44,510 nucleotides of DNA, taken from Candidatus Iainarchaeum sp. (GTDB lineage: Archaea; Micrarchaeota; Micrarchaeia; Anstonellales; Bilamarchaeaceae). Location: NCBI GenBank assembly GCA_028686985.1, contig JAQUBA010000009.1, forward strand, positions 1 through 44,510. Reading direction: 5' to 3'. The position numbers and the translations under genes were made by a program. Below the pieces are notes generated by a model. The model was given only the letters and a program-made list of their open reading frames with translations, had not been told where the DNA came from and searched no databases. Position 1 is the stretch's first letter; each line of letters opens with the position of its first letter. This document shows positions 30,089 to 44,510 of the stretch, one piece after another.

Positions 30089-30463
30089 CTATTCCGGCCC
30101 CATCCTGAATATGACCGGAATGGGCGCAGGCGCCATCACGTTCTTGTGCAGCACGATCGCCCCCTCGCCCGGAATGCAGGAAGTCGCCTGCAGCGCGTCC
30201 ATCTCCACACACAGCCCGGTCAGTTCCGTTATCCTGTCGGCGTCCTCATCAATCCTGCGTTCATTGATGCCGAACACCCCGCCCATCCATTCATCGTGCA
30301 TTGCGGGCTGCAGCCCGCCCCTGAGCCATATGACCCTCCACGCATCCTCGGCAAGCTCGTATTGGTAGATGGAGGAGTGCTGGACCGGATGGTGCAGGAG
30401 CTGAAAAGACGAAAAAGAGAGCAGAACTGTAAGCGCAATCAGCGCCTCCACCGTCTTCAGCAT
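30089..30463 (-). CDS. hypothetical membrane-anchored protein, pilin-like N-terminus
   Basis: A 124-residue protein with one hydrophobic helix at the N-terminus (LKTVEALIALTVLLSF) followed by a mainly polar extracellular part containing two cysteines (LCVEM, SCIPG). The EALIALTVLL pattern resembles archaeal class III (pilin-type) signals, but no clear Gly before the cleavage site is present, so processing by PibD-type peptidase is uncertain. ATG 30463 lies 26 nt from GATTTAATTGG (minus), supporting it over TTG 30472. The gene stands alone between the LAGLIDADG operon and rfcL. Confidence 0.6.
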   Translation of the reverse strand: MLKTVEALIALTVLLSFSSFQLLHHPVQHSSIYQYELAEDAWRVIWLRGGLQPAMHDEWMGGVFGINERRIDEDADRITELTGLCVEMDALQATSCIPGEGAIVLHKNVMAPAPIPVIFRMGPE

Positions 30464-30512
30464 GCATATCAATTAGCCCGAAACCAATTAAATCATTATA
30501 TGCATAATCCCC

Positions 30513-31925
30513 ATGATGCTCCTAACCGAGAAATACGCCCCTCAAAAAATTGAGGAAATACCCGGCAACACCGAGCTTAAGCAGAAGCTCAGGCGCTGGG
30601 CTCTCAACTGGAGCAGGGGCGAGCCGGGCAAGCCCATCCTCCTCGCCGGCCCCACCGGAACTGGGAAGACGGCGCTCGCGGTCGCCCTGGCCGCAGAAAT
30701 GGGGCTGGAGCTCGTGCAGATGGGCGCAAGCGAACTCCGCAACAGGGAGCGCGTGGAAAAAGTGATGCACGGCGCGATGCTCGCCTCCACCCTCTCCGGG
30801 AGAGGCAAGCTGGTGCTGATAGATGACGTGGATGCGATGTCCGGCAGGGAGGACTCTGGCGGCATATCCTCCATCGCATCCGTGCTCCGCTCCCCGGCGC
30901 AACCCATAATACTCACGGCGACGAACGCATGGGAAAAGAAAATCTCTTCCCTCCGCTTCCTGTGCGACATCCTCACGCTCAAGAGGGCGATAGCCCCATC
31001 CATTGCGCGCCTGCTCTCCAGCATCGCGGAGAAGGAGGGGCTGGAATGCCCCATAGGAAAAATAGGGGAAATCTCCGAGAACGCGAACGGCGACATACGG
31101 GGCGCCATAAACGACCTGCAGGCATGCTCGCCCGGCATGCGCGACCGCGGGAAGGACATGTTCGCCAGGATGTCCGCCCTCTACCGCTCCACCACCTACT
31201 CGGAGGCGAGGGAGGCGGGCTTCGGCGACGTGGAGCACGATTACTTCAAGCTCTGGATAGACGAGAACCTCCCAACGGTCTTCTCCGGGAATGAGCTCGC
31301 GGAGGCCTACTCCTCCCTCTCCCGCGCCGACATCTTTGACGGCAGGATACGTTCCCGCCAGTACTGGGGCTTCCTCCGCTACTCCGGGGACCTGATGTGC
31401 GCCGGCACCGCGCTCGCGCGCCCCGGCGCGGGCCAGAAATTCATACGCTTTTCCTTCCCCACGTACCTGCGCCAGATGTCCGCGACCACGGCCACGCGCG
31501 CAACCCTCCGCTCCCTCCGCGCAAAGGCCGGCAGGCGGCTCCACACTTCCGGCAAGGAGGCGGAGGGCTTCCTCCCGATCCTCGCATGGATGCACGCAAA
31601 CCGCCCGGGCGAGGTGGAGTCCCTCTACGGGCTTGACGAGAAGGAGGCGGAGTTCCTCTCCACGCTGCTCCCCAGGGGCGTGCTCGTGGAGAAGCCGGAA
31701 AAGAAGGGGCGGGAGAAAAAGACAGGCAAAAAAGATGCGGAACCGGAAAAGGGAGGAGAAGAGAAGGGGAGGGGCGCTGCACCCCCATCCGAAGCCGCCA
31801 CGGATAAGGCAAAGCCCGCAAAGCGCGAGGAGAGAGAAGAAGGAGGCGGATCTGCGAAGAAAGACGCCCCCCCTCTGGAGAGGCAGCAGCGCGCCCGCCA
31901 CTCCAAGCTTTCCGAATTTTTTTGA
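30513..31925 (+). CDS. rfcL: replication factor C large subunit
   Basis: Clamp-loader subunit that opens and loads PCNA at primer ends. The 470 residues begin LLTEKYAPQKIEEIPGN (RFC box), with Walker A GPTGTGKT (about 46-53), Walker B LVLIDDVD, an SRC-less sensor region with LTATNAWEKK, and GDIRGAINDLQ. A charged linker rich in Lys and Glu leads to a C-terminal PCNA-interacting motif KLSEFF. Two adjacent ATGs (30513, 30516) follow AT-rich boxes at 26-28 nt, so the message is probably leaderless. The small RFC subunit is not in the window. Confidence 0.94.
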   Translation: MMLLTEKYAPQKIEEIPGNTELKQKLRRWALNWSRGEPGKPILLAGPTGTGKTALAVALAAEMGLELVQMGASELRNRERVEKVMHGAMLASTLSGRGKLVLIDDVDAMSGREDSGGISSIASVLRSPAQPIILTATNAWEKKISSLRFLCDILTLKRAIAPSIARLLSSIAEKEGLECPIGKIGEISENANGDIRGAINDLQACSPGMRDRGKDMFARMSALYRSTTYSEAREAGFGDVEHDYFKLWIDENLPTVFSGNELAEAYSSLSRADIFDGRIRSRQYWGFLRYSGDLMCAGTALARPGAGQKFIRFSFPTYLRQMSATTATRATLRSLRAKAGRRLHTSGKEAEGFLPILAWMHANRPGEVESLYGLDEKEAEFLSTLLPRGVLVEKPEKKGREKKTGKKDAEPEKGGEEKGRGAAPPSEAATDKAKPAKREEREEGGGSAKKDAPPLERQQRARHSKLSEFF

Positions 31926-31933
31926 TTGTGCGT

Positions 31934-31973
31934 CGTGAGCGCCCGTGTCCGAACGCGTAGGAAAACGCTCACG
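31934..31973. repeat. inverted repeat downstream of rfcL
   Basis: CGTGAGCG (31934-31941) and CGCTCACG (31966-31973) form an 8-bp perfect stem with a 24-nt loop, just past the rfcL stop and before the promoter of the next gene. There is no T-run after it. It may be a 3' mRNA structure; function unknown. Confidence 0.45.
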
Positions 31974-32043
31974 TCGGTCTCGACGATAGCTTTATATTTC
32001 TTGTCTTCCGAATAGGCGCAGCGTAACTTTAAGGGTGTAAACC

Positions 32044-32259
32044 ATGGGATCCAAAATCGGAACAGAGAAAATAATGAGGGAGGACGGGTACCTCTACTTC
32101 GTCGGCAAGGACGGCTACGTCTGGAGGGTGCCGATGAAGCACAACAAGAGGGGCTCCAAGAAGAAGGTAGGGACCCAGAAGGTCGACAAGAAGAGGGGCC
32201 ACCTCTACTATGTCGGCGACGATGGGTACGTGTATCAGGCCAAAATGAAGAACGCCTGA
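32044..32259 (+). CDS. small tandem-repeat protein (YLYxVGxDGYV repeats)
   Basis: A 71-residue basic protein built from two copies of a ~20-residue unit: GYLYFVGKDGYVWRVPMK and GHLYYVGDDGYVYQAKMK, joined by a Lys-rich linker (NKRGSKKKVGTQKVDKK). Each unit suggests two beta strands with a tight turn. Similar small proteins are, from memory, common and uncharacterised in DPANN archaea and CPR bacteria. A TATA-like CTTTATATT (about 31988-31996) predicts a start near 32018, giving a ~25-nt leader with AAGGGTGTAAACC before the ATG. A T-rich stretch follows the stop. Confidence 0.75.
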   Translation: MGSKIGTEKIMREDGYLYFVGKDGYVWRVPMKHNKRGSKKKVGTQKVDKKRGHLYYVGDDGYVYQAKMKNA

Positions 32260-32267
32260 GTTCACTA

Positions 32268-32298
32268 CTCCCTTTTTATTTTTTCCTCCTTATTTTAT
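32268..32298 (+). terminator. T-rich intrinsic terminator
   Basis: After the small repeat-protein stop the plus strand has CCCTTTTTATTTTTTCC and a further TTATTTTATT. Oligo-T runs of this type terminate archaeal transcription without a hairpin. Confidence 0.45.
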
Positions 32299-32320
32299 TC
32301 CCCTATTATAGGTGGTTTAA

Positions 32321-32704
32321 TTGAAATTAGTTGTATCTGACAAAAAGACAGGCAAATCGTATTCCGTCGAAGTCGCGGAGGACAAGCGCTCCCTCTTCGT
32401 TGGGAAGAGGATGGGCGACACGGTCCAGGGCGACGACTTCGGGCTTTTCGGCTACACGCTGAAGCTCAGCGGCGGCAGCGACACGAGCGGCATGCCCATG
32501 AGGCGCGACATCTCCGGCTCAAGGAAGATGAAGGTCCTCCTCTCCGGCGGCCAGGGCTTCAACCCAACCCGCAAGGGGATGAGGAAGAAGAAGATGGTGC
32601 GCGGCAACCTCTTCAGCGCGGACAACGCGCAGGTGAATGTCGTCGTAGAATCGTACGGCCAGGCCGCGCTGGACGGGCTCCTGAAGAAGGAGGAGAAGAA
32701 GTGA
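32321..32704 (+). CDS. rps6e: 30S ribosomal protein eS6
   Basis: Small-subunit protein of 127 residues, matching the archaeal length. Family features are the N-terminal MKLVVSDKKTGKSYSVEV, LFGYTLKLSGGSDTSGMPMR (the conserved G-G-S-D-x-x-G-x-P-M block), and GQGFNPTRKGMRKKKMVRGN. The start is TTG at 32321, seven bases after GGTGG. The stop overlaps the GTG start of aIF2-gamma (GTGA), the usual archaeal pairing of these two genes. Confidence 0.95.
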   Translation: MKLVVSDKKTGKSYSVEVAEDKRSLFVGKRMGDTVQGDDFGLFGYTLKLSGGSDTSGMPMRRDISGSRKMKVLLSGGQGFNPTRKGMRKKKMVRGNLFSADNAQVNVVVESYGQAALDGLLKKEEKK

Positions 32705-33903
32705 CCGGCTCCTCCCCGCAGGCGTTGGTGAACATAGGCCTGCTCGGCCACGTGGACCACGGGAAGACCAGCCTCACAAAGGCGCTCACCGGCAAATGGA
32801 CCGACACGCACAGCGAGGAGGTCAAGCGGGGAATCTCCATACGCCTCGGCTACGCGGACACCAACATCTATTTCTGCCCCAAATGCGATCTGCACACACT
32901 CAAGGACAACTGCCCCAAGTGCGGCGGGAAGGCCGAACTGAAGAGGCGCGTCTCTTTCCTGGATGCGCCTGGCCACGAAACGCTGATGACAATAGTGCTT
33001 TCAGCTTCCAGCATAATGGATGGCGCGCTATTGCTAATCGCCGCGAACGAGCCGTGCCCGCAGCCGCAGACCGCGGAGCACCTCATGATACTCAACATAG
33101 CCGGCATAAAGAACGTCGTGGTGGTGCAGACCAAGATAGACCTCGTCACGAAAGAGCAGGCGAAGGCGCACTACGAATCCATACGGAATTTCCTGAAGGG
33201 CTCGGTAGCGGAAAACGCGCCCATAATCCCCGTAGTTTCCAACTACGGGATAAACATTGATGCGGTCGCGGACGCGATAGAGCGGTCAATCCCGACGCCG
33301 CACCGCGACACTTCGTTGCCGCCCATAATGTTCATCTCCCGCTCATTTGACATAAACAAGCCCGGCACCCCCATCCCGAACCTGAAGGGGGGCGTCCTCG
33401 GCGGCTCCCTGGTCCAGGGAACAATGAAGAAGGGGGATATGGTGCTCATACGCCCGGGCTTTGAGACTTCAAAAAAGGTGGTGAAGGAGGTGCAAGTGAA
33501 GGTGGAATCCCTCATGTGCGAGGGCGGCCCGCTTGAATCCGCTGCACCCGGCGGCCTCATTGCGATCGGCACTCCCCTGGACCCGAACGTAGCGAAGGCG
33601 GACTCGCTCGTCGGCTGCCTTTTGGGAAAGCCGGGTTCGCTTCCCGACGCGAAGGCCGAGATTGCGTTTGACCACCACCTCATACAGAGGGAGGGCTTTG
33701 ACAACCCGCCCCTGAAGATGGGCGAGCCCATAGTCATAAACGTGGGCACCGCCACGGGCATAGGCGTGATTGCCGCTATAAAAAAGGGGCAGGTCCTAAC
33801 GAAGCTCAAGAAGCCGGTGTGCGTCGTGAAGGGCTCCACGGTTGCGGTAAGCAGGCGCGTGGGCCAGAGATGGAGATTGGCGGCCTGGGGCAAGTCCATC
33901 TAA
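32701..33903 (+). CDS. aif2g: translation initiation factor aIF2 subunit gamma
   Basis: GTPase subunit that carries initiator Met-tRNA to the ribosome. The 400 residues have G1 GHVDHGKTS (16-24), a zinc knuckle of two CPKC pairs (about 59-76), G3 DAPGH, and domains II and III with CEGGPLESAAPGGLIAIGT. G4 reads TKID where NKID is usual, so the base-contacting Asn is Thr. The start is GTG overlapping the eS6 stop. The alpha and beta subunits are not in the window. Confidence 0.95.
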   Translation: MTGSSPQALVNIGLLGHVDHGKTSLTKALTGKWTDTHSEEVKRGISIRLGYADTNIYFCPKCDLHTLKDNCPKCGGKAELKRRVSFLDAPGHETLMTIVLSASSIMDGALLLIAANEPCPQPQTAEHLMILNIAGIKNVVVVQTKIDLVTKEQAKAHYESIRNFLKGSVAENAPIIPVVSNYGINIDAVADAIERSIPTPHRDTSLPPIMFISRSFDINKPGTPIPNLKGGVLGGSLVQGTMKKGDMVLIRPGFETSKKVVKEVQVKVESLMCEGGPLESAAPGGLIAIGTPLDPNVAKADSLVGCLLGKPGSLPDAKAEIAFDHHLIQREGFDNPPLKMGEPIVINVGTATGIGVIAAIKKGQVLTKLKKPVCVVKGSTVAVSRRVGQRWRLAAWGKSI

Positions 33904-34316
33904 TCCGCGCAGAAGTACAGTTTCTCTATATTCTCATTATAGACTACTAATCTGTAGATGCAGTTCTTTCCATCCGCATCAAACCCGATTTCCAGGTTTT
34001 CCAGCCCCATCTCCCTTTCCAGCGCGGCGACGTCCACTGCGCCCAATTCATCGCCATCAATAAGATTCGGCCGGTAGCTTGCGGCGAAACCGAAGCCCCC
34101 GTCCTTCTCCACTCCCGCGTACTCCACCACGTAATCCGATACCGCCAGCAATCTCCCCTCCTTCGCAAGCAGGGAAATGTCGGATTCCGCCTTGTGCTCG
34201 GCGAGCGCAGAGAAGAGCAGGATGTTGCTAAGCATAAGTATGACTGGAATGGTTGCGAAAAGCAAATCAAACGTCGCCACCGCCTTCATGCACCGTGCGT
34301 GCATCCCCTCCGTCAT
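33900..34316 (-). CDS. pilin-like membrane-anchored protein
   Basis: Third gene of a minus-strand operon. From ATG 34316 (overlapping the preceding stop in ATGA) the 138-residue protein has an N-terminal hydrophobic helix (FDLLFATIPVILMLSNILLF) after a short basic segment, then a soluble part with strands and a Cys near each end of the last domain (KNCIYRLVVY, YFCAD). This is the layout of minor pilins and other membrane-anchored surface proteins. A class III cleavage motif is not clear. Its stop overlaps the aIF2-gamma stop region on the other strand by four bases. Confidence 0.7.
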   Translation of the reverse strand: MTEGMHARCMKAVATFDLLFATIPVILMLSNILLFSALAEHKAESDISLLAKEGRLLAVSDYVVEYAGVEKDGGFGFAASYRPNLIDGDELGAVDVAALEREMGLENLEIGFDADGKNCIYRLVVYNENIEKLYFCAD

Positions 34317-34627
34317 ACTGGCTCCCCCTCCACTCCACCGCACCCCGTGATTATCATCCCGGACGACCCGCCCACGCTCACCCTCTCCCCGGAAACCACA
34401 TGCGCGAGCGGCAAGTCCGCGCTTGCCCTCCCTGCCCAGCACCCCGCGCCCATCGCAGAGGAGGACTCCTCGGCAAGCACCCTGTCCGCGGCCGCATCCT
34501 GCATTCCCCTCTCGCCCGCCTCCAGCGCCCTCGCACCTGCAACAATGACCCCTACCAGCACGAGGAATGCGGCAAACGCGAGCAGGAATTCCGCCGCAAC
34601 CTGCCCCTTCCGGTTTTTCGCTTTCAT
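34313..34627 (-). CDS. type IV pilin-like protein with class III signal
   Basis: A 104-residue archaeal pilin-type protein. The N-terminus is basic (MKAKNRKG), followed by QVAAEFLLAFAAFLVLVGVI. Cleavage after Gly8 would put Glu at +5, the hallmark of prepilin peptidase substrates, and the Q-x-A-x-E pattern resembles archaeal Q-x-S-x-E-x-x-x-L pilins. The soluble domain is short, with Cys residues (GAGCWAG, ITGCGG). It overlaps both neighbours by four bases in a three-gene operon. No PibD peptidase, assembly ATPase or TadC-like protein is in the window. Confidence 0.75.
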   Translation of the reverse strand: MKAKNRKGQVAAEFLLAFAAFLVLVGVIVAGARALEAGERGMQDAAADRVLAEESSSAMGAGCWAGRASADLPLAHVVSGERVSVGGSSGMIITGCGGVEGEPV

Positions 34628-35244
34628 CGTATCACTTCACCGGTGGGAAAAACCGAAACCCCCGCAACATCATACTTTGATGAATACACGGAAATCCCCA
34701 CCACCCCGCCCAGTATGGGGTTCGGCGGCTCAGGCCCCTTCAGCTGGATGGAGTCCTCCAGCCCGGCCCCGTACGGCGCGACCTGATTTATCTGTATGAA
34801 AGGTGCGCACGCGGGGCTCGCAATGGATTGGCACGCCGCGCACATCCTTACCCCCCCCGCATCCCTCATCCTTCCGGGCAGCGCGTCCAGCTCCCCCGAA
34901 GCAGCATATCCGCACCACACCTGCACCTCGTAATCCTCGTCCCACAAATCCGCGCCGAGCTGCGCCAGCGAGGCATAGGCAGCCGCCCTTACCGCAACTT
35001 CCCTCTCCTGCGGCACCCGCATCTCCGGAGGCACCGCCAAATCATACGCATCCGCGCCTGCACGCATTCCGTAAGAGGTTGCCTGCAATATGTTCTCTTT
35101 CACGTTCCTTTCTATGTGCTCCATCCTCATGACGCTTATCGCCTTTTCGTTGGAATAGTAATGCGGCTCGGCCAGGAGCGCGGCCGCTGCCACGAACACG
35201 CCCAGCGCGGCGAGCACAATCAGGAAAGAAACGTAGCCCCTCAC
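34624..35244 (-). CDS. membrane-anchored surface protein, pilin operon gene 1
   Basis: First gene of the three-gene operon, 206 residues. It begins MRGYVSFLIVLAALGVFVAAAALL, one N-terminal helix after a single Arg-Gly, then an extracellular region with a Cys-rich segment (VRMCAACQSIASPAC). Gly3 could precede a pilin-type cleavage but +5 is not Glu, so this may be a pilus-associated protein rather than a standard pilin. The start is GTG at 35244, 26 nt from an AT-rich box shared with the divergent acyltransferase gene, giving a leaderless message. Confidence 0.7.
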   Translation of the reverse strand: MRGYVSFLIVLAALGVFVAAAALLAEPHYYSNEKAISVMRMEHIERNVKENILQATSYGMRAGADAYDLAVPPEMRVPQEREVAVRAAAYASLAQLGADLWDEDYEVQVWCGYAASGELDALPGRMRDAGGVRMCAACQSIASPACAPFIQINQVAPYGAGLEDSIQLKGPEPPNPILGGVVGISVYSSKYDVAGVSVFPTGEVIR

Positions 35245-35262
35245 AGCATTATTCCTGCAAAT

Positions 35263-35276
35263 GGGATAAAATACCT
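35263..35276. promoter_or_regulatory. shared bidirectional TATA box (pilin operon / acyltransferase)
   Basis: GGGATAAAATACCT centred near 35270 lies 26 nt from the GTG at 35244 on the minus strand and 26 nt from the ATG at 35296 on the plus strand. One AT-rich box placed midway can support both leaderless transcripts. Confidence 0.55.
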
Positions 35277-35295
35277 ATCGTGCATCCCTAATCCG

Positions 35296-36252
35296 ATGAG
35301 GCTTCGCCAGATAGACGCCTTCCGCGGGCTTGCAATCGTGCTGATGGTCTTCTTCACGCTTTACGCGCTGCTCAGCGGAGGCCCCGACTTCCTTATGCAC
35401 AATAAGCAAGATTCGCTGCACGCAGGCGATTTCGTGCTTCCCCTATTCATTTTCGCAAGCGGCATGTCCCTTTTCTTCTTCGCCCAAAAGAGGAAAGGCA
35501 GCCCCAAAAATTATGCATTGGACTCCATCGGGAGGTTCGGCAAGCTCGTGCTCATCTCATTCTTCCTCATGCTCCTCGCAGGGGCAGCCCCATTTACCAT
35601 GGACGAGGTCATGCTCATCGCCCTCCTTTCGCTGCCCACCCTCCTGATTGCAGTCCTCCCGGAACTTTTCATTTATGCGGGCATCCTTCTCCCGCCCGCC
35701 CTTTACCTCGCCCTCCTCTCCGCGGACGCCCTCCCGGATTTCAGCGCCGCATACCTCGGCGGCTACCCCGCCGCAGTCTTCTACCTCCCGGTGATGCTCT
35801 TCGGGTTCCTTGCGGGCAAATCAATATATGAAAAGAAGGGCCTCCTGCCAATATTCGCGGCAACCCTCTTCCTATCCGTCGCCCTCCTCTTTCTTGTCCC
35901 GCCCTACAAGATGGGGGCGTCCCCCTCCTTCATGGCGCTCGCCTCCCTCCTATCCATCATGCTCTACATCTGCGTGGGACGCGCAATCCGCATCCGGTCC
36001 CTGTCCGCGCTCTCCCCCTTCTTTTTCGAATACCTCGGCAGGAGGCCCATACGCTATTGGGCGCTGATGTTCGTTTTCTTCGTAATCCCCGTAAGATTCT
36101 ACCTGTTCGCAAACCAGATGCCCGCCCCGGTCGGACTTGGGCCCGTGCAGGCGGCGTCGGTATCCATGGCATTTTTGTTGTTCTTATTCCTAGTTTCAAA
36201 GCTGACAGATGGGATTGTCGGTTTTATAGAAACAGCATCCGAGAAAAACTAA
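35296..36252 (+). CDS. HGSNAT-like membrane acyltransferase (DUF1624 type)
   Basis: A 318-residue protein with about ten membrane segments. The N-terminus RLRQIDAFRGLAIVLMVFF carries the R-x-x-x-x-D-x-x-R-G motif of heparan-alpha-glucosaminide acetyltransferase relatives, which move acetyl groups from cytoplasmic acetyl-CoA to sugars outside the membrane. The substrate is unknown. The position beside surface-protein and glycosyltransferase genes suggests modification of a surface glycan. ATG 35296 is leaderless by the shared promoter. A hairpin terminator separates it from the convergent VirB2-like gene. Confidence 0.78.
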   Translation: MRLRQIDAFRGLAIVLMVFFTLYALLSGGPDFLMHNKQDSLHAGDFVLPLFIFASGMSLFFFAQKRKGSPKNYALDSIGRFGKLVLISFFLMLLAGAAPFTMDEVMLIALLSLPTLLIAVLPELFIYAGILLPPALYLALLSADALPDFSAAYLGGYPAAVFYLPVMLFGFLAGKSIYEKKGLLPIFAATLFLSVALLFLVPPYKMGASPSFMALASLLSIMLYICVGRAIRIRSLSALSPFFFEYLGRRPIRYWALMFVFFVIPVRFYLFANQMPAPVGLGPVQAASVSMAFLLFLFLVSKLTDGIVGFIETASEKN

Positions 36253-36296: not shown

Positions 36297-36662
36297 TCAG
36301 AGGGTGCCGGTACCGGTGCCGCTACCGCATGCAATAGTCACATTTGTGCCTACCATTGCCTGCAGCACAGGCGGAACCAGAACCAGGATTATTATGCCGA
36401 TGACGGCACCGATAATCATGGAGGTTGCCCAGACCGAGGCCCTTGCCCTGGTCTCGGCGCCCATAACCTGGCCCGCAGCGTATACGACCGCCGCCAGCAC
36501 GATGAGCACGAATATGACCGCGCCCAGCACCGCATTAACGGTTTCGTAGAGCGTGCAAATGCCGGATATTATGCCCGTGCTTGCAGCAGTGCTCGCAAAG
36601 CCAACGCTTGAAAGGACCAACGCAGCCAGCATCAGCCCGCTAATCATCTTTGTCAAATCCAT
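36297..36662 (-). CDS. VirB2/TrbC-like (Ced/Ted-like) pilin subunit, paralog 1
   Basis: A 121-residue protein with a cleavable signal (MISGLMLAALVLSSVGFA, then STAAS), followed by two membrane helices (about 43-63 and 77-98) separated by a short polar loop GAETRARAS. This hairpin layout is that of conjugative pilins VirB2/TrbC and of archaeal Ced/Ted DNA-import pilins. A Cys near the mature N-terminus (GIC) and one near the C-terminus (IAC) may form a disulfide. The tail is Gly/Thr repeats. An unusually strong ribosome binding site AAGGAGGT lies seven bases before the ATG, implying high expression. A paralog is at 40.1 kb. Confidence 0.75.
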   Translation of the reverse strand: MDLTKMISGLMLAALVLSSVGFASTAASTGIISGICTLYETVNAVLGAVIFVLIVLAAVVYAAGQVMGAETRARASVWATSMIIGAVIGIIILVLVPPVLQAMVGTNVTIACGSGTGTGTL

Positions 36663-36763
36663 TTTCTGACCTCCTTGCTTCTGTATAGTTCCTAGTAACG
36701 TTTTTAATGTGCTCGGTCACCTTCAGGGAACAGTTATTAACCTCCCGCACCATCCAAGAAACT

Positions 36764-38233
36764 ATGTTCCGCAAGATAATCCTCGCCCTTTTCACCATCG
36801 TATTCATCTCCAAATTCGCATACCTTGGTGCGATGCCCTTCTCCTTTGATGAAACATTATACACGGAGATGATTGCCGAGGAGGCGGAACACCCCTCCTT
36901 CCTCCCCACCTGGTTCGGCTACCCCGCCCCCTGGAAGCCAGGCTTATTCTTTTTTGCATCTTCCCTTTTTCTGCCCATAACATCGGCCATTTTCAGTTCC
37001 CCGGAATATGCGTACCGCATTCCCCTGATGGTATTCGGCCTCCTCAACGCCGCGCTCCTGTATCTCATAATAAAGCGCTTCTCCGGGGAAGGCACCGCGC
37101 TCGCCGCCTCCCTCATCTTCTATTCCGCCCTCCCTTCCTTCAGCGTGGAGAGCCGACTCCTCATGGAAACGTTCATGCTATCCACAATCCTCGCCTCCCT
37201 GTATTTCTATACAAGGGAGAAACCAGGCCCATCCAACTTCATTCTCGGAGGCATCTTCGCCTTCCTCGCAGCCATCACCAAATCGGTCGTGGCCCTTCTG
37301 ATCCCGGCCCTCGCCATCGCATACGTGTTCCAGTTTGACCGGAAGAGCCTGCGCAGCCCCGCATTCCTCATTTCCCTCCTTGCGGTTCCCGCCGGCCTCG
37401 CGCTATTCTGGCTCTCGCTATCCGGCCTGGGCCTTTCGGAAAGCATTTTCTTCACCGACACAGGAAAGATGTTCGTATATGACTATTCAAGCGAGCTCTT
37501 GTCCAATGTGGTCTGGGGCGCCACCCTCATCCTGCTATTCATGCTCCCGGTGCTCGCCGCCTCCCTCATCTCATTTGCCTCCACGTGGAGGAAAAACCTC
37601 ATGTTCTCCGCATGGATGCTCCTGCTCTTTTTCCTGCTGCTTCTTGGGCAGAGGCCATGGTACTACTACTATGCGATGCCGCCCGTCGCATTCTTCTCGG
37701 CCCTCCTGCTGGTCCCTTCCGGAAAAAAGCTGGATGCGTTCGCAGCCCTCATACTGGCGATACTGGCGGCGGTCTCCTGCTCCGTCGCCCTCTTCACGGA
37801 ATGGAACCCTAGCTACATCCCATCCTTCGGCGAGGGAAAGGAAATAGGGCTCATGCTCTCCGGCAAGGAGAACGTCCTTTTCATCGGGCAGTACCAGGTC
37901 AATACAATCTCCATCTCCTACAAATCCATAGAAGAGAGGAGGGATTACGGCAATCCGCTGGACTTCGGCTGGATACTCTTTGACTACAGGAAGAACAACC
38001 TCACTTCCGCATCTGCGCAGGATTTCGTGCAGGACTACTGGAGGGCGGATTACGATGTGGAAGAAAGCGATTTCGCCGCCATCTTCTGGCAGGACAGGAT
38101 TTTCAGGAAGAACACGTCCATAACGGAATTTGATTACGTGGTCGTTTCCCCTCCTATTGAAAACTTCACACCCGCCGGCTATTCGAGATATTATGCAGGG
38201 AATTACTCCACAGTTTATGGGAGGATTGGCTAG
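36764..38233 (+). CDS. PMT/ArnT-like membrane glycosyltransferase
   Basis: A 489-residue GT-C type transferase using a lipid-linked sugar. The first extracytoplasmic loop has Asp29-Glu30 (PFSFDETLY), the acidic pair typical of PMT/ArnT and GT83 enzymes, followed by about ten hydrophobic helices and a C-terminal soluble domain of ~150 residues. The acceptor is unknown. ATG 36764 lies 26 nt from GTTATTAAC, so it is leaderless; a longer frame from 36707 is not needed. The DPM-like GT2 gene follows immediately and probably provides its lipid-sugar donor. Confidence 0.85.
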   Translation: MFRKIILALFTIVFISKFAYLGAMPFSFDETLYTEMIAEEAEHPSFLPTWFGYPAPWKPGLFFFASSLFLPITSAIFSSPEYAYRIPLMVFGLLNAALLYLIIKRFSGEGTALAASLIFYSALPSFSVESRLLMETFMLSTILASLYFYTREKPGPSNFILGGIFAFLAAITKSVVALLIPALAIAYVFQFDRKSLRSPAFLISLLAVPAGLALFWLSLSGLGLSESIFFTDTGKMFVYDYSSELLSNVVWGATLILLFMLPVLAASLISFASTWRKNLMFSAWMLLLFFLLLLGQRPWYYYYAMPPVAFFSALLLVPSGKKLDAFAALILAILAAVSCSVALFTEWNPSYIPSFGEGKEIGLMLSGKENVLFIGQYQVNTISISYKSIEERRDYGNPLDFGWILFDYRKNNLTSASAQDFVQDYWRADYDVEESDFAAIFWQDRIFRKNTSITEFDYVVVSPPIENFTPAGYSRYYAGNYSTVYGRIG

Positions 38234-38926
38234 ATGGGGGATTACGGCAACCTCACGGTCATCCTGCCGACCCTCAATGAAGGGGCCAACATTGCGTCCC
38301 TGCTGGATTTCCTGATTGCGGGCTATCCCGGCATCCACGTGCTGGTGGTTGACGATGCCAGCACCGATTCAACCGCCCGCACCGTAAAATCCAAGGCCGG
38401 CAAAAATCTCAAATTGATTGAAAGGAGGGGGAAACGCGGCCTCACGGCAAGCATAATTGACGGCATAAAGGCGGCGCAAACGCCGTTCGTGATCGTGATG
38501 GATTCCGACTTCCAGCACCCTCCGGAAAAGATTCCGGAAATTTACAAACTTCTCCGTGACGGCTCGGACCTTGCCATCGCATGCAGGGAAGAGGTGAAGG
38601 GCTGGCCCGCCCACAGGAGGTTAATCTCATGGGGCGCGTCCTTCCTTGCCGATGCCCGCCTTTCAATCTGCGGCTGCCCGAAGGTTTCCGACATCCTTTC
38701 CGGCTATTTCGGCGCGAAACGTGAATGGGCCCTCAAAAGCATCGCTTCCAATACCAAAAGATTCGAGCCGCAGGGCTACAAGTTCCTTTTTGACCTCCTC
38801 AAGGGCGTGAAGCCCGGGAGCGTAAAAATCTCCGAGGCCGGCTATGTTTTCGGCGGCAGGAAGGCGGGCAACTCAAAGATCGGGCCGGGCCACATGCTCC
38901 GCTTTCTCCATTCCCTTTTCATTTAG
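38234..38926 (+). CDS. GT2 family, dolichol-phosphate mannosyltransferase-like
   Basis: Cytoplasmic enzyme of 230 residues that would transfer a sugar from a nucleotide donor to dolichol phosphate. Visible are VILPTLNEGANIASLL, VVDDASTDSTART, VMDSDFQHPPE with the metal-binding DSD, and a ~GYKFLFDLLK segment seen in DPM1-type proteins. No membrane domain is fused. The ATG directly follows the stop of the PMT-like gene, so the two form an operon. Its 3' end overlaps the convergent GT87-like coding region by 54 nt. Confidence 0.9.
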   Translation: MGDYGNLTVILPTLNEGANIASLLDFLIAGYPGIHVLVVDDASTDSTARTVKSKAGKNLKLIERRGKRGLTASIIDGIKAAQTPFVIVMDSDFQHPPEKIPEIYKLLRDGSDLAIACREEVKGWPAHRRLISWGASFLADARLSICGCPKVSDILSGYFGAKREWALKSIASNTKRFEPQGYKFLFDLLKGVKPGSVKISEAGYVFGGRKAGNSKIGPGHMLRFLHSLFI

Positions 38927-40036
38927 CCGCAGGCCGACGTGCGCAACCATGCCGGCCAGCACAAGGTTCCTCGCGGCCAGCACCGCTATCGGGAGCGTTT
39001 CCATCATGTAAAGGGAGTACCATCCGTACGGAAAAACCAGTATCGCAAACACGGCCAGCGCGATGCACATCGCATAGAGCCGCATATCCCCTTTCCCGAT
39101 AAGCGGCACCGCGAACGCAACCGGCCAGAGCATGAATTGCGTGGAGCCGATTTTCCCGAAAAGGACGCCAACCGCAAGCACGAGGAAGCAGTATTCCCAG
39201 AACCTGCTCCCCCTGCGCTTGTCCAGCGCGTATGCGAGGATGACCGCGCCCACAGCCGCCGCCTGCAGAAGGGTGGATGCAGGCACGAGCCACTGCAGGC
39301 CTTCGGGCAGCACAAGGTGCACCGAGCCCCAGCTCTCCTGCGTCCGTATGCCCATGTCCAGGAATTGATTGGCGGCCAGCAGCACGCTTGAATACACGCT
39401 CTCAACCTGCAGCCCCCTTTGTGACTGGTACATGAGGGAATTGATGGTTGCCGGGCTTGCGAGCAGCAGGAGCACGCAAACCGCGCCGGCAATCCCCACT
39501 CTTTTCGCCCCGCCCTTCTTTCCCCACTCCGGTATCGCGAACAGGGGCAGCAGGAACACGGGGAATACCTTCACGAACGCTCCGGCGATTGCGGCAAGCC
39601 ATCCCCCCATCCTCTTCCCTTCGGAAAAGAGATACGCGCCTGAGAATGCGAGCGCCACCGCGACAATCTCCACCCGGTCTATCACGAAATAGATGAGGAT
39701 TGCGAATATGATGGAAACCATCAGCAGCCGCTCAATGCGCATCATCTTCCCGTATATGAAGAACAGCAGCCCGAGCCATGCGAGCGAAAGGGCATGGAAT
39801 GCAACCGTGAATGATTCCGGCGTCCCGGCGAAGCTCCGTATGAACGCGAAATAAGCCATCGCACCGAGCGGGTAGGCGAGGGTTCCGCCCTCCGGATTTT
39901 CCTCCAGGAAATACCAGGCCATGTCAAATGTCGGCCCGCTGCTGAATAGGTTGTAGGCGTATATCCCGATGAAGGTTGCCCATACGACTATGGTGATAGT
40001 GAGCGTTATCGCGAGCTCCCTCCCCCCATAATCCAT
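38873..40036 (-). CDS. GT87-like (DUF2029) polyprenol-phosphate mannosyltransferase
   Basis: A 387-residue membrane protein with about 10-11 helices. Early acidic residues in the first loop (SGPTFDMAWYFLEENPEGG) match the GT-C pattern of DUF2029/GT87 enzymes that use polyprenol-phosphate-mannose outside the membrane. I start at ATG 40036, with AGGGGTG eight bases upstream; GTG 40048 and GTG 40078 are possible. It follows the second VirB2-like gene on the same strand by 48 nt, so the two may be co-transcribed. The tail overlaps the GT2 gene antisense by 54 nt. Confidence 0.75.
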   Translation of the reverse strand: MDYGGRELAITLTITIVVWATFIGIYAYNLFSSGPTFDMAWYFLEENPEGGTLAYPLGAMAYFAFIRSFAGTPESFTVAFHALSLAWLGLLFFIYGKMMRIERLLMVSIIFAILIYFVIDRVEIVAVALAFSGAYLFSEGKRMGGWLAAIAGAFVKVFPVFLLPLFAIPEWGKKGGAKRVGIAGAVCVLLLLASPATINSLMYQSQRGLQVESVYSSVLLAANQFLDMGIRTQESWGSVHLVLPEGLQWLVPASTLLQAAAVGAVILAYALDKRRGSRFWEYCFLVLAVGVLFGKIGSTQFMLWPVAFAVPLIGKGDMRLYAMCIALAVFAILVFPYGWYSLYMMETLPIAVLAARNLVLAGMVAHVGLRLNEKGMEKAEHVARPDL

Positions 40037-40084
40037 CTTCCTATGCACCCCTGCAGCATGCCGCAGGCATCCGCCCACCGTTTA

Positions 40085-40426
40085 TCAGCATGCCCCCTGC
40101 ACGTCCACTTGCACCCCGGCGAACGTGTCCAGTATCTGCGGCACGAGCACGTAGATGAGTATCCCAATAACAGCGCCGATCAGCATCGCGGTCGCCCAAA
40201 CGGTCGCGCGTGAGCGGGTTTCCGCCCCGAACACCTGCCCTGCCGCATACACGACAGCGGCCATTATGATTAGCGCGAATATAACGGAGGCCATTATCGC
40301 GCGGGCAGTGTCCGCGAGCATGCAAATCCCTTCCTTTATGGAATTTCCATTGCTGAAGTCCGACTGTGCCGCAATGATGCCAATGAAAATTGCAAACAAC
40401 GCAAGCTTGATGGCTGTACCCGACAT
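40085..40426 (-). CDS. VirB2/TrbC-like (Ced/Ted-like) pilin subunit, paralog 2
   Basis: A 113-residue paralog of the 36.3-kb gene. The two-helix core is closely similar, sharing VVYAAGQV, GAETRxRAxVWAT and IGAVIGI. It too has a Cys after the signal region (EGIC) and one at the extreme C-terminus (QGAC). From ATG 40426 it starts with a signal-like hydrophobic helix (IKLALFAIFIGIIAA); a GTG at 40453 would put extra aromatic residues ahead of it. The AT-rich box at 40455-40468 places transcription just before ATG 40426. It precedes the GT87-like gene in the same direction. Confidence 0.72.
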   Translation of the reverse strand: MSGTAIKLALFAIFIGIIAAQSDFSNGNSIKEGICMLADTARAIMASVIFALIIMAAVVYAAGQVFGAETRSRATVWATAMLIGAVIGILIYVLVPQILDTFAGVQVDVQGAC

Positions 40427-40488: not shown

Positions 40489-41001
40489 GTGAAAGAGAAG
40501 GCAAAGGCGATAATACAGATATTATTCGGGCTGGCAATCGCAGCCGCAGTGATACTCCTAAATGACAGGATAGCCGCGCTGGGAAATTACGGATACGCCG
40601 GTGTCTTCATAATCTCCGCGCTCTCCTCCGCAACCCTCTTCATCCCGGCTCCGGGCTGGGCGGTGGTCGCGGCGATGGCCACCATCCTGGACCCCATATA
40701 TGTAGGATTAGCTGCAGGAATCGGCTCCGCTTTCGGCGAATTGACCGGCTACATGGTCGGGGACGGGGCGCTAAGCCTCGCGCACCGTAAAAAATATGAG
40801 AAATTCCTCGCCCTCATAAAGAAGAACGACGCAGCCGCAATCTTGGTATTCTCCTTCCTCCCGAACCCATTCTTTGACATCGCTGGAATAGCGGCGGGCG
40901 CGGCAAAGGTGCCGGTCTGGAGATACGTGCTCTTCTGCGCGGCCGGGAGGAGCCTGCGCTATGTGCTGCTCGCGTGGCTTGCCGTGCAATTCTTCCCATA
41001 G
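40489..41001 (+). CDS. DedA/VTT-domain membrane protein
   Basis: A 170-residue integral membrane protein of the VTT (SNARE-associated/DedA) superfamily. The core signature is present: FIPAPGWAVVAAMATILDPIYVG, the AGIGSAFGELTGYMVGDG re-entrant-type segment, and FLPNPFFDIAGIAAGAAKVP. Members act as lipid scramblases or transporters; recent work links DedA proteins to recycling of polyprenyl phosphate, which would suit the neighbouring lipid-sugar enzymes, but this is inference. The start is GTG at 40489, 26 nt from the AT-rich box. A hairpin terminator follows the gene. Confidence 0.87.
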   Translation: MKEKAKAIIQILFGLAIAAAVILLNDRIAALGNYGYAGVFIISALSSATLFIPAPGWAVVAAMATILDPIYVGLAAGIGSAFGELTGYMVGDGALSLAHRKKYEKFLALIKKNDAAAILVFSFLPNPFFDIAGIAAGAAKVPVWRYVLFCAAGRSLRYVLLAWLAVQFFP

Positions 41002-41046: not shown

Positions 41047-41153
41047 GACCCCCTCCCACTGCACTCTGAGACTCCTTGAACGGCTCCTTACGCACCCCAC
41101 CCTTTTTGTCCCCTGCCAGCACCCATTTTAAAGTTTCTCTGCCTTCCAATCCC

Positions 41154-41489
41154 ATGCTTCCGGCGGAAATCGCATATCTGCTCGACCTGGCAACCGTCCT
41201 CATAGCATCCGTTGGCGTCATAATACTCATATACGGTGTCGCGCATGCGGTCTACCGCCTCGTGCGCGCGGAGCTCTTCCTGAAGCAGAAGTTCAGGGAA
41301 TACGAGCACATAAAGCGCATCCTCATCCAGAAGATAATCTTCGCCCTGGACTTCTTCGTCGCCGCGGACCTGATAAGGCTCATGGTCGCCGTGACGCTGG
41401 ACGAGCTGACGTCCATCGCCCTCATAGTCGCGATAAGGACCGTCCTCAGCTGGTCGCTGAGCAGGGAAGTGCAGTTGCACGAGGAATGA
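41154..41489 (+). CDS. DUF1622 family membrane protein
   Basis: A 111-residue membrane protein with three hydrophobic segments (about 5-30, 58-75, 80-97) and a basic cytoplasmic loop KQKFREYEHIKR. The pattern VILIYGVAHAVYRLV and LIQKIIFALDFFVAADLIRL is that of DUF1622, whose function is unknown. ATG 41154 lies 26 nt after a TATA-like TTTTAAAG (about 41126-41133), so the message is leaderless; the longer open frame upstream is unsupported. The next feature is the 23S rRNA promoter. Confidence 0.85.
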   Translation: MLPAEIAYLLDLATVLIASVGVIILIYGVAHAVYRLVRAELFLKQKFREYEHIKRILIQKIIFALDFFVAADLIRLMVAVTLDELTSIALIVAIRTVLSWSLSREVQLHEE

Positions 41490-41608: not shown

Positions 41609-41869
41609 TCCGTTAGGGGGAGTGCTCTTTTGAGCGCCCGCTTGCTTCGGCAATGGCGCGTTGACAAAAGCATTAGGCTTTTCCTTCTCTGAAGGAAGGC
41701 CGGACAATCCCGTTTCCGGTTTCGGGTTTCCCGTTTCCGGTACCGGTGGAAAAGGCCTCATCTACTCTGGTCTTGCCGCCGTTCGGGTGCCGTCCATCAT
41801 GAGTACGAAAGGATAGCAAGGAAGTTTGAGTTAAAGCCGGATTCGTCCGGTGGAAACTCAAAGTGTGGA
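41609..41869 (+). other. 23S rRNA leader (processing region) with hairpins
   Basis: About 260 nt between promoter and domain I without a credible protein gene. It holds two copies of CCCGTTTCCGGT (41709-41720 and 41730-41741), inside a possible stem AGGCC/GGCCT (41697-41701 with 41754-41758). It also holds a strong hairpin just before domain I (TTTGAGTT 41825-41832 with AACTCAAA 41855-41862, enclosing GCCGGA-TTCG-TCCGGT). At 41802-41813 lies AGTACGAAAGGA, one base from the universal sarcin-ricin loop core. Archaeal leaders normally pair with the 3' flank to form a processing stem; that flank lies outside the window. Confidence 0.6.
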
Positions 41870-44510
41870 TATTGCTGCAATCCATGTAGTGGATGGCTTG
41901 GCTAGTGCCCGCAAAGCTCCGCGGTAAGCTGCGATAAGTCCAGGGTAGGTGCACGCAACCTGTGATCCTGGAATTGAGCCGTGTACACCTCGGGCAACTG
42001 AGGCGTACAACAACCCCGGGAATTGAAATATCTTAGTACCGGGTGGAAGAGAAACCAATCGGGATCCGGTCAGTAAGGTGACTGAACGCCGGCCAGACCA
42101 AGCCGAATTCCCCACAGCAATGTGGGGTAGATGTGGCGGGGAGCATCCTCCGAGCGAGCAAAAGTCGGCTGGAAAGCCGCACCATAGCGGGTGACAGTCC
42201 CGTATGCGAAACGAGGGGGAGCGATCCAGGAAGAGTACCGTCCTCCGGATTGAGGGCGGGAACATGGGGCTACCAAGCTCCAAGTCTAAACATGTGGCGC
42301 TAGACCGATAGCGAATTAGTAACGCGAGTGAATGCTGAAAAGGACTCCGGAAGGAGAGTCAAAAGAACCTGAAACTACATGGAGACAGGCAGGCAAGGCA
42401 TGAAAGGGTTCAGGTCCGCCGAAGTGAATTCCCGCAAGGGTTGGATCGAGGCGGATTAACCGGTGTCTTGTCTTTCTTCTCGAAGCAAGAGCCAGGGAGT
42501 TGAGATGTGTGGCGAAGCGAAAACTGAAGCGAAAGCGAGCGCCCGCAGGCAACCAGGGGCGACCTCGGAAACGGGGTTCAGTCACCCATCTCAGACCCGA
42601 ATTCGAGTGATCTACACCTGGGCAGGGCGAAGCCAGCTTGATCGCTGGTGGAGGCCCGCAACCATTGATGGTATATCCTCTTGGGTGACCTAGGCGTAGG
42701 GGTGATAGTCCAGTCGAACTCGGCAATAGCGGGTTCCCTCCGAAATGTCTCTCAGGACAGCGTCGCTGGAGGACGGTGATGGGGTAGAGCACTGAATGGA
42801 AAGAGCGGCTCCGAAAGGAGTCACTTTCCTATCAAACTCCGAATCCATCCCCTCCGTAGAAGGCGGCAGTCGGGTTTCACAGGGTAAGCCGGTGAGCCCT
42901 TTCGGGAACGACCGTACGTGGGGTTAAGGGCCCTAAGTTCTAGCTAAGTGTCAATCTTAAAGGCGTCTCTATCCTTAGACAGCTGGAAGGTAGGCTTAGA
43001 AGCAGCCATCCTTCAAACAACGCGTAATAGCGGACCAGCCGAGGATGCGGATTCCGAAAATATACGGGGCTAAGCTAGATCCCGATACCCCACCCAAGCC
43101 ACAAGCTTGTGGAGTAGGGGGGCGACCGGGGCGGGCAGAAGCGGGTGCGTAAGCTCCCGTGGACCGCTCTGGTATGAATATCCTGGCGCTAGTAGCAGCA
43201 TATCTAGGTGAGAATCCTAGACACCTGATAGGGCACGGATTCCTCAGCCATGTTTGTCAGCTGAGGGTTAGGCGATCCTAAGTGCATAGGCAATTCCGAA
43301 TGCACGAAAGGGAAACGGGTCAATATTCCCGTCCCGCGAAAGTAGACGCGGCAACGCAAGTTCCGTTCCTGACATCCTGGGATAGGCCGAGCAGGGGAGA
43401 CCCTGCTTAACAGCCATAAATCAATGGAGTCTTATCATGAGGAGAAGTTGATTAAAGGCTGGAATGGGAGCAATCTTCGGCTAATTCCTGGGATCCATGA
43501 AAAGGGAACGGTTCCGATCTTTCGCGACCGTACCTAGAACTAATACAGGTGCCCCTAGCTGAAAAGGCTCAGGTGTGTCAGGATAACCCAGGCAAGGGAA
43601 CTCGGCAAAATGGTCCCGTAACTTCGGAAGAAGGGATGCCTGCCTCTGCGAAGAGGCAGGTGGCACAGACCAGGGGAGAGCGACTGTTTACCAAAAACAC
43701 AGATCTCCGCAAAGTCGAGAGGCTTAGTATGGAGGTCGACGCCTGCTCACTGCCAGCACCCGAACACCCCGTTCAAGGGGAAAAAGGACTGGTAAAGAGC
43801 GGGGGTAACTCTGACCCTCTTAAGGTAGCGTAATACCTCGCCGCTTAATTGGCGGCTTGCATGAATGGCGTAACGCCTCTCCCACTGTCCCTGCCTGGGA
43901 CCTGGTGAAGTCACTTCCCGGTGAAGATGCCGGGGACTTCCAGAGGGAAACGAAGACCCCATGGAGCTTTACTATAGCCTGTTGTTGTGATATTGGTGCG
44001 GTTACCCAGCGTAAGTGGGAGCCGTCGAAGCCGTCCTTCCGGGGGCGGCTGAGGCAAAAGTGAAACACCACTTAATCGTACTAATATTGCTTACCCGCAA
44101 GGGGACAGCATCAGGTGGATAGTTTGGCTGGGGCGGTACGCCTTCGATAGGAAAACAAAGGCGCCCAATGCTCTGCTCAGTCCGGTCAGAAATCGGATGT
44201 AGAGGGTTAAAGACAAATGCAGGGCTGACTGTATCTCTAAAAGCGTGGGATGCAGAGGCGAAAGCCGGGCTTAACGAACATTAATAACCTATTGGTGAGG
44301 TTTTAATCTGTCAGACAAGCTACCCTGGGGGTAACAGGCTCGTCGCGGGCGAGAGTACACATCGACCTCGCGGCTTGGTACATCGCTGTCGGCTTGGGAC
44401 ATCCTGGCTGTGTAGGAGCAGCCAAGGGTTGGGTTGTACATCCATTAAAGTCCCACATGAGCTGGGTTCAGTACGTCGCGAGACAGTACGGTAGTATCTT
44501 CTGGAAGTGT
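41870..44510 (+). rRNA. rrl: 23S ribosomal RNA, 5' ~2.6 kb (3' end beyond window)
   Basis: Domains I to V are present in normal order, without introns. Landmarks are TAGTGGATGGCTTGG and GCTGCGATAAG at the 5' end; helix 2 formed by TCCATGTAG (41881-41889) and CTACATGGA (42375-42383); GTAACTCTGACCCTCTTAAG (43804-43823); CATGAATGGCG; CTTTACTATAGCC; and the peptidyl-transferase region with GGGGGTAACAGGC, CATTAAAG and GAGCTGGGTTCAGTACGTC. The sequence is divergent at places usually fixed, for example GGTAACAG for GATAACAG. The 5' boundary is approximate. The window ends near E. coli position 2630, before the sarcin-ricin loop and domain VI. No 16S gene lies in the 40 kb upstream. Confidence 0.95.

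Follow-up and report, generated by a model that had tools for sequence, protein, structure and literature searches.

Paired VirB2/TrbC-like pilins in a Micrarchaeota genome and their probable place in a Ced/Ted-like, chromosomally encoded derivative of type IV secretion

Two small paralogous proteins encoded on a contig of Candidatus Iainarchaeum sp. (GenBank assembly GCA_028686985.1, JAQUBA010000009.1, positions 1 to 44,510, here called the window) are probably secreted pilins of the VirB2/TrbC superfamily, belonging to a chromosomal type IV secretion system (T4SS) derivative of the Ced/Ted kind in Micrarchaeota. The source genome is archaeal, 844 kb in size and 85% complete, and the window makes up one of its contigs. 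Pilin 1 (36297..36662, minus strand) has 121 amino acids (aa), with GGAGGT lying just 5' of its ATG on the minus strand, and pilin 2 (40085..40426, minus strand) has 113. Both open reading frames (ORFs) are intact, and the two proteins share 59% identity across 86 residues (E=1e-33), too much for chance, and are paralogs. Each comprises an N-terminal hydrophobic segment, two hydrophobic helices and exactly two cysteines; VVYAAGQV, GAETRxRA and IGAVIGI are common to both, and the motif YAaGQ-x-x-GAETR-x-RA-x-VWAT joins the two helices. A first-pass annotation of the window had pointed to this pair, with its shared motifs, hydrophobic leader and paired cysteines, and had taken it for pilins of the VirB2/TrbC or Ced/Ted type. 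The pair is as it was described, and the assignment gains support from family members that match TrbC and T4SS_pilin models and from a homologous pilin found in an ATPase operon. The same annotation proposed a conjugation-derived pilus with glycosylated subunits, of which the pilin part is supported and the glycosylated subunits come down to gene adjacency.

The pilin family is widespread in the lineage. It was found in 58/59 relatives, where tandem arrays are frequent and reach 4-5 divergent copies, and in 120/147 genomes sampled from the class (genes of relatives were called by a simple ORF script), and of the named relatives that the pilin profile retrieved, the great majority are Ca. Micrarchaeota. 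Across 93 aligned members, the turn motif G-A-E-T-R-x-R-A-x-V-W-A-T is nearly invariant. At E<=0.01, PF18895 (T4SS_pilin) is matched by 30/93 members, with a best value of 9.5e-7, and PF04956 (TrbC/VirB2) by 23/93, with a best value of 3.6e-7. As the window copies themselves fall below the cut-offs, it is the family as a whole, not single copies, that carries the signal of membership, and a placement in some unrelated family, which would have spoken against the pilin assignment, is not borne out. Weak matches of the Yip1, DUF and proteasome types were set aside as hydrophobicity or chance. The AlphaFold2 model of pilin 1 (predicted local distance difference test score 84.6 at full length and 87.7 for the mature form) is a two-helix hairpin, with helix 1 at 25-66, a tight turn at GAETR and helix 2 at 69-104. 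One family member, at L039:11464-13185, continues from its pilin domain into a long cysteine-rich extension, for a total of 573 aa; here and below, L, G and C numbers denote loci, genomes and contigs of the analysis, and names such as MRGY and c55 are our own cluster labels.

The cysteines form a conserved pair. In both window pilins one lies at the start of helix 1 and the other at the C-terminus (C36 and C112 in pilin 1). Across the 93 members, the N-side cysteine occurs in 90, either at position 36 or one turn of the helix further on at 39, and the C-side cysteine in 91; both are present in 90, one alone in 1 and neither in 2. Hydropathy and helix prediction, the only indicators applied here, place the N-terminal hydrophobic segment at 6-24, and a signal peptide (about residues 1-23 of pilin 1) is predicted, with removal of about 23 residues. 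If it is cleaved, both ends of the hairpin would lie outside the cell, and an intrachain disulfide clasp is therefore plausible, as its co-conserved cysteines suggest.

No VirB4 or VirB6 relative lies in the window, as the first-pass annotation had said, and a VirB4-type ATPase and VirB6-like channel candidates are encoded elsewhere in the same genome. The ATPase is a protein of 523 aa of the CedB/CedD/VirB4 type, encoded on contig C13 (L072:9552-11123). It matches AAA_10 (3e-14) and P-loop_TraG (4e-10) in Pfam and, in NCBIfam, CedD (2e-20), CedB (3e-20), VirB4-like (4e-19) and HerA (6e-13), in that order and all below the equivalog cut-offs. HerA was told from VirB4-type ATPases by Pfam and NCBIfam models, and the bona fide HerA of the same genome matches only DUF87 and HAS-barrel. 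A genome search for a VirB4/CedB-type ATPase co-occurring with the pilins, which had been suggested as a check, found one in 59/59 genomes, most of which carry a second paralog of about 480 aa. Among plasmids, searches with the pilins and the VirB6-like proteins returned no relative, and the ATPase retrieved VirB4/TraC/TraG and DUF87 proteins that are only distantly similar (identity <27%). In several genomes, the last ~100 residues of the ATPase are duplicated as a separate stretch beside the gene (G053:C5, G005:C33, G058:C29, G040:C5, G056:C26, G017:C63 and G054:C29).

The second component is a family of CedA/VirB6-like proteins with 5-7 transmembrane (TM) segments, which share an LPxGxxxRxxxxTRxxGGxxIA-type segment. 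The window's genome encodes about a dozen of these paralogs on contigs C2, C6, C12 and C14, a count that is approximate, as several arrays are cut by contig ends. On C2 (L080:2385-19119), a membrane AAA (Cdc48-like) ATPase is followed by ~6 VirB6-like genes, and last in the array stands a protein of 1402 aa whose start resembles a lipobox and which matches no Pfam family; giant lipobox-bearing proteins of about 1400-1900 aa close VirB6-like arrays. The membrane AAA ATPase at L042:13651-17886 is interrupted by an intein that contains a LAGLIDADG domain (PF14890, PF14528).

Several lines of gene order and homology tie the pilins to these components. In relatives, a five-gene operon encodes an 81-aa pilin, a VirB6-like protein of 309-318 aa, a protein with two TM segments (2TM), a VirB4-type ATPase of ~480 aa and c55, of 231-256 aa. 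It is complete in L208, L209, L211 and L212; in L210 the 81-aa pilin was not called, and in L213 only the pilin and VirB6-like genes stand together. A VirB6-like gene lies <=5 kb from a VirB4-type ATPase in 26 genomes. In the window's genome, the 81-aa unsignalled pilin and its VirB6-like gene are found at the end of contig C12 (L083:3-998), where the contig cuts the operon, which is probably why the second ATPase is not seen in that genome. The operon pilin, which has neither cysteine nor signal peptide, aligns with the window-family profile at a probability of 95 (hhalign, E=3.8e-8), and a hidden Markov model of it, run against 5312 six-frame ORFs, retrieved window-type pilins only. Likewise, profile comparison of the polytopic family with the VirB6-like protein of the operon gives a probability of 99.6 (E=9e-24). 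Synteny adds to this homology: in L122, a Ca. Micrarchaeum contig, three window-type pilins immediately precede the VirB4-type operon in the same orientation, and in G028, G023 and G020 the pilins and a six-gene VirB6-like array share one contig, about 7-12 kb apart, separated by a Cdc48-like membrane AAA gene and the same small membrane proteins as those at window positions 30089-35244. The array on contig C2 of the window's genome, beside its AAA gene, is the same one. Finally, three relatives encode fusions of 513-519 aa in which two tandem pilin hairpins precede VirB6-like TM domains (L034:7347-8906, L035:8685-10226 and L036:8311-9858), and one VirB6-like protein, L217:13657-14619, matches the pilin profile at E=2.6e-5. 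According to passages of PMC9905601, CedA1 resembles the N-terminus of CedA, and the fusions support the published idea of a common origin of pilin and channel. As a separate observation, a KaiC-like ATPase gene and a gene for a 107-aa protein repeatedly lie downstream of pilins (L108, L113, L147, L151 and L157), and the KaiC-like gene adjoins a pilin in 7 loci versus 1.8 expected, a comparison that, like the other adjacency statistics below, takes loci as independent, some of them being from related genomes.

A number of results weigh against the assignment of the window proteins to such a system. Both window pilins fall below every Pfam cut-off, with T4SS_pilin at E=0.7 for pilin 1. Foldseek searches with the full-length and mature models gave no match at E<1 to anything, and thus none to solved CedA1, TedC or VirB2, in a search where helical hairpins are poorly discriminated. 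Profile searches of pilin alignments against the PDB yielded chance-level matches, the best relevant one being TrwL at E=0.15, and no significant sequence match to solved CedA1, TedC or VirB2. Neither Pfam nor NCBIfam gives a match for the VirB6-like family, which is so named from its topology, its place in the operon and the pilin-like N-termini that it shares. Direct profile comparison of the pilins with the polytopic family failed (probability 0.3), so that the link between the two rests on intermediates such as the fusion proteins. In addition, the ATPase sits between VirB4 and HerA, with PDB searches placing HerA entries first, and it is not linked to the pilins in the genome of the window.

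We infer from these elements how such a machine could be built and used. The Sec pathway would export the pilin, and signal peptidase would cut off the predicted ~23 residues. The mature protein would then insert as a hairpin of two long helices, its topology placing the GAETRxRA turn in the cytoplasm and the cysteine-bearing ends outside, where a disulfide may join them; by the co-conservation of the cysteines, this clasp could replace the head-to-tail cyclisation of some bacterial TrbC/VirB2 pilins. By analogy with Ced/Ted and bacterial T4SS, the VirB6/CedA-like proteins would provide platform and channel, and the CedB/CedD/VirB4-type ATPase would extract subunits into the filament and power the movement of cargo. 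The conserved 2TM partner probably assists the VirB4-type ATPase; its layout raised the suspicion of a VirB3 or VirB4 N-terminal domain, which found no profile support. The cargo would most likely be DNA, exchanged between cells or with a host, by analogy with Ced, for which DNA import, and export with CedE/CedA1, have been described (PMC11868833). Taken together, pilins and machine suggest a permanent, home-built device for contact or exchange with other cells in an archaeon that is probably host-dependent.

The closest likeness is to the Ced system of Sulfolobales (CedA, CedA1, CedB, CedD and CedE), which is chromosomal and combines a two-helix pilin with 5-7-TM CedA-like proteins. CedB and CedD are the top models for the Micrarchaeota ATPase, and in both systems the pilin hairpin also occurs at the N-terminus of channel-type proteins and CedA/CedE-like proteins are paralogous. 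Unlike those of Ced, however, the window pilins have predicted signal peptides, a cysteine pair and arrays, the VirB6-like family has expanded to about a dozen members, the ATPase, of ~480-525 aa, has a separate 2TM partner, and the phylum is a different one. The Ted system of Thermoproteales, as presented in passages of PMC9905601, resembles it in a two-helix pilin with a signal peptide (TedC), which in the window pilins is predicted, along with a 7-TM TedA and a VirB4-like TedB at one locus. The window pilins have no detectable sequence similarity to solved pilin chains, and the cysteine pair and arrays are Micrarchaeota features that those passages do not describe for Ted. Bacterial TrbC/VirB2 pilins likewise form a two-helix hairpin after a signal peptide, predicted in the window copies, and family members match PF04956 and PF18895, whereas the window copies remain below the cut-offs and have a predicted disulfide in place of cyclisation or free ends. 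A further parallel is found in Patescibacteria, a reduced-genome and largely epibiotic group in which a chromosomal T4SS is widely kept, with VirB2 arrays of 2-11 genes, VirB4 and VirB6 (PMC12102498); these are bacteria with a VirB4 related to the MPF-FATA class, as opposed to the CedB/CedD-like archaeal ATPase here. Within the DPANN group, a VirB4/TraG-based secretion system has been proposed for Nanohaloarchaeota, but there the ATPase is fused to a giant protein with Ig domains, and VirB2, VirB6 and a pilin are not mentioned (PMC10266531).

The open-access literature on VirB4, VirB2, T4SS and conjugative pili, to which this survey was confined (subscription papers and preprints were outside its scope), contains no description of a system of this kind in Micrarchaeota or other DPANN archaea. 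The subject bears on the physical and genetic dealings of DPANN archaea, whose genomes fall below about 1.5 Mb, with their hosts. If Micrarchaeota carry a chromosomal apparatus of the conjugation type almost universally, the range of Ced/Ted-like systems would widen from Crenarchaeota to DPANN, in parallel to the T4SS kept by Patescibacteria, and a cysteine clasp would give archaea another way to do what cyclisation does for pilins. The pilins, the VirB6-like proteins and the VirB4-type ATPases form a small named set of genes for direct tests. Going further, we tentatively raise the possibility that Micrarchaeota possess two parallel T4SS derivatives, which together could serve the whole lineage as a cell-to-cell organelle of exchange with hosts. 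The compact, Ced-like derivative would comprise the 81-aa pilin, VirB6-like, 2TM and VirB4-type proteins and c55, and the expanded one would comprise ~6 different VirB6-like proteins, a giant surface lipoprotein, the membrane-anchored Cdc48-like AAA ATPase and the arrays of clasped, signal-peptide-bearing pilins.

The genes between the two pilins bear on whether the subunits are glycosylated. A PMT_2-family GT-C glycosyltransferase (36764..38233, plus strand; PF13231, E=2e-10) is divergent from pilin 1, its start having been moved from 36707 to 36764, to an ATG that matches the relative in L040. It is followed by a GT2 glycosyltransferase resembling dolichyl-phosphate-sugar synthases and AglJ (38234..38926, plus strand; PF00535, E=6e-26), for which the best NCBIfam model is AglJ at 5e-15, far under the cut-off. 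A polytopic protein of 401 aa (38873..40078, minus strand), earlier called GT87-like, has no Pfam or NCBIfam match, and that call is not upheld; a protein of 402 aa occupies the equivalent place, between the same genes, in L040. As gene order, the association of PMT with the pilins is genuine: a PMT gene directly adjoins a pilin in 15/69 loci, 11 of them divergent, versus 3.1 expected and a maximum of 7 in 500 within-locus shuffles, well above chance.

The PMT/AglJ-like products probably synthesise lipid-linked sugars destined for the cell surface, and they may or may not decorate the pilus. In our estimate, the somewhat better-supported view is that the glycosylation genes serve S-layer or membrane glycans and are neighbours of the pilins by history, a view compatible with the T4SS-like reading of the pilins themselves. 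N-glycosylation sequons are not enriched in the tails of the 93 pilins (13 observed versus 15.2 expected), many pilin loci are entirely devoid of PMT and GT2 genes, another locus of the window's genome encodes an STT3/AglB candidate, and the adjacency of GT2 and of the HGSNAT-type acyltransferase to pilins, at a distance of one gene, is weak or not above chance. Only the excess of PMT neighbours runs counter to it. Glycosylated pilus subunits, as first proposed, thus find support in PMT adjacency and none in the sequon counts.

What the apparatus does is a second point of divergence. The same machine could serve attachment to an archaeal host or protein delivery into it instead of DNA exchange, which we regard as the main alternative, though a less likely one. 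Micrarchaeota are probably host-dependent, some small cells reach their hosts by pili-like structures (PMC5498576), and giant lipobox-bearing proteins end the VirB6-like arrays. For Nanohaloarchaea, effector secretion through VirB4-linked giant surface proteins has been proposed (PMC10266531). Pilin arrays also vary, as do those of Patescibacteria, for which antigenic variation or broader contact has been discussed (PMC12102498). The nearest models of the ATPase, however, are CedB and CedD, which are DNA-transfer ATPases.

It is less likely again that the small proteins, though T4SS-related, are non-polymerising membrane subunits, CedA2-like or accessory to the channel, and that there is no pilus. 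Pilin-like hairpins are indeed fixed at the N-termini of VirB6-like proteins, and the Sulfolobales protein CedA2, to which no role has been assigned, is a membrane protein with two helices (PMC9905601), but the cleavable-looking signal peptides, the arrays of up to 4-5 divergent copies and the conserved cysteine pair, predicted to lie outside, better fit a secreted and abundant structural subunit. Coat proteins of spindle-shaped viruses are also hydrophobic and two-helix. An origin as remnants of such a virus or of another provirus, to which one family member with a weak His1_capsid match (E=0.019) might point, is strongly disfavoured and was rejected on distribution, given the presence of the family in 58/59 relatives beside housekeeping genes, its linkage to VirB4- and VirB6-like genes and a search of viral contigs that returned no relative of the pilins.

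The remaining neighbours flank the pilin and glycosyltransferase genes. A VTT/DedA-type membrane protein (40489..41001, plus strand; PF09335, E=7e-13) and an HGSNAT-type membrane acyltransferase (35296..36252, plus strand; PF07786, E=9e-5, just over the cut-off), the start of which was corrected from 34828 to 35296, agree with the earlier family calls, as do the PMT-like and GT2 enzymes. Four genes for small membrane-anchored proteins at 30089-35244, all on the minus strand, recur beside pilins in relatives. The first is of the MRGY type (34624..35244), whose cluster (cluster 8) lies <=2 genes from a pilin in 8 loci versus 3.5 expected, the window copy being assigned by its N-terminus and position. 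The second (34313..34627) is a class III signal-peptide, type IV pilin-like protein (PF04021, E=0.0011, below the cut-off), and the other two, which belong to the same conserved cluster and have no Pfam match, are of the FDLLFA type (33900..34442) and the K-T-(I/V)-E-A-L type (30089..30472). These proteins are possible type IV pilin-like partners. A T2SSE-type ATPase is encoded elsewhere, and together they recall the Ups-Ced partnership of Sulfolobales, which is only a parallel. Beyond the VTT gene lie an adjoining gene for a DUF1622 membrane protein (41076-41489, plus strand) and the archaeal 23S rRNA (41866-44510).

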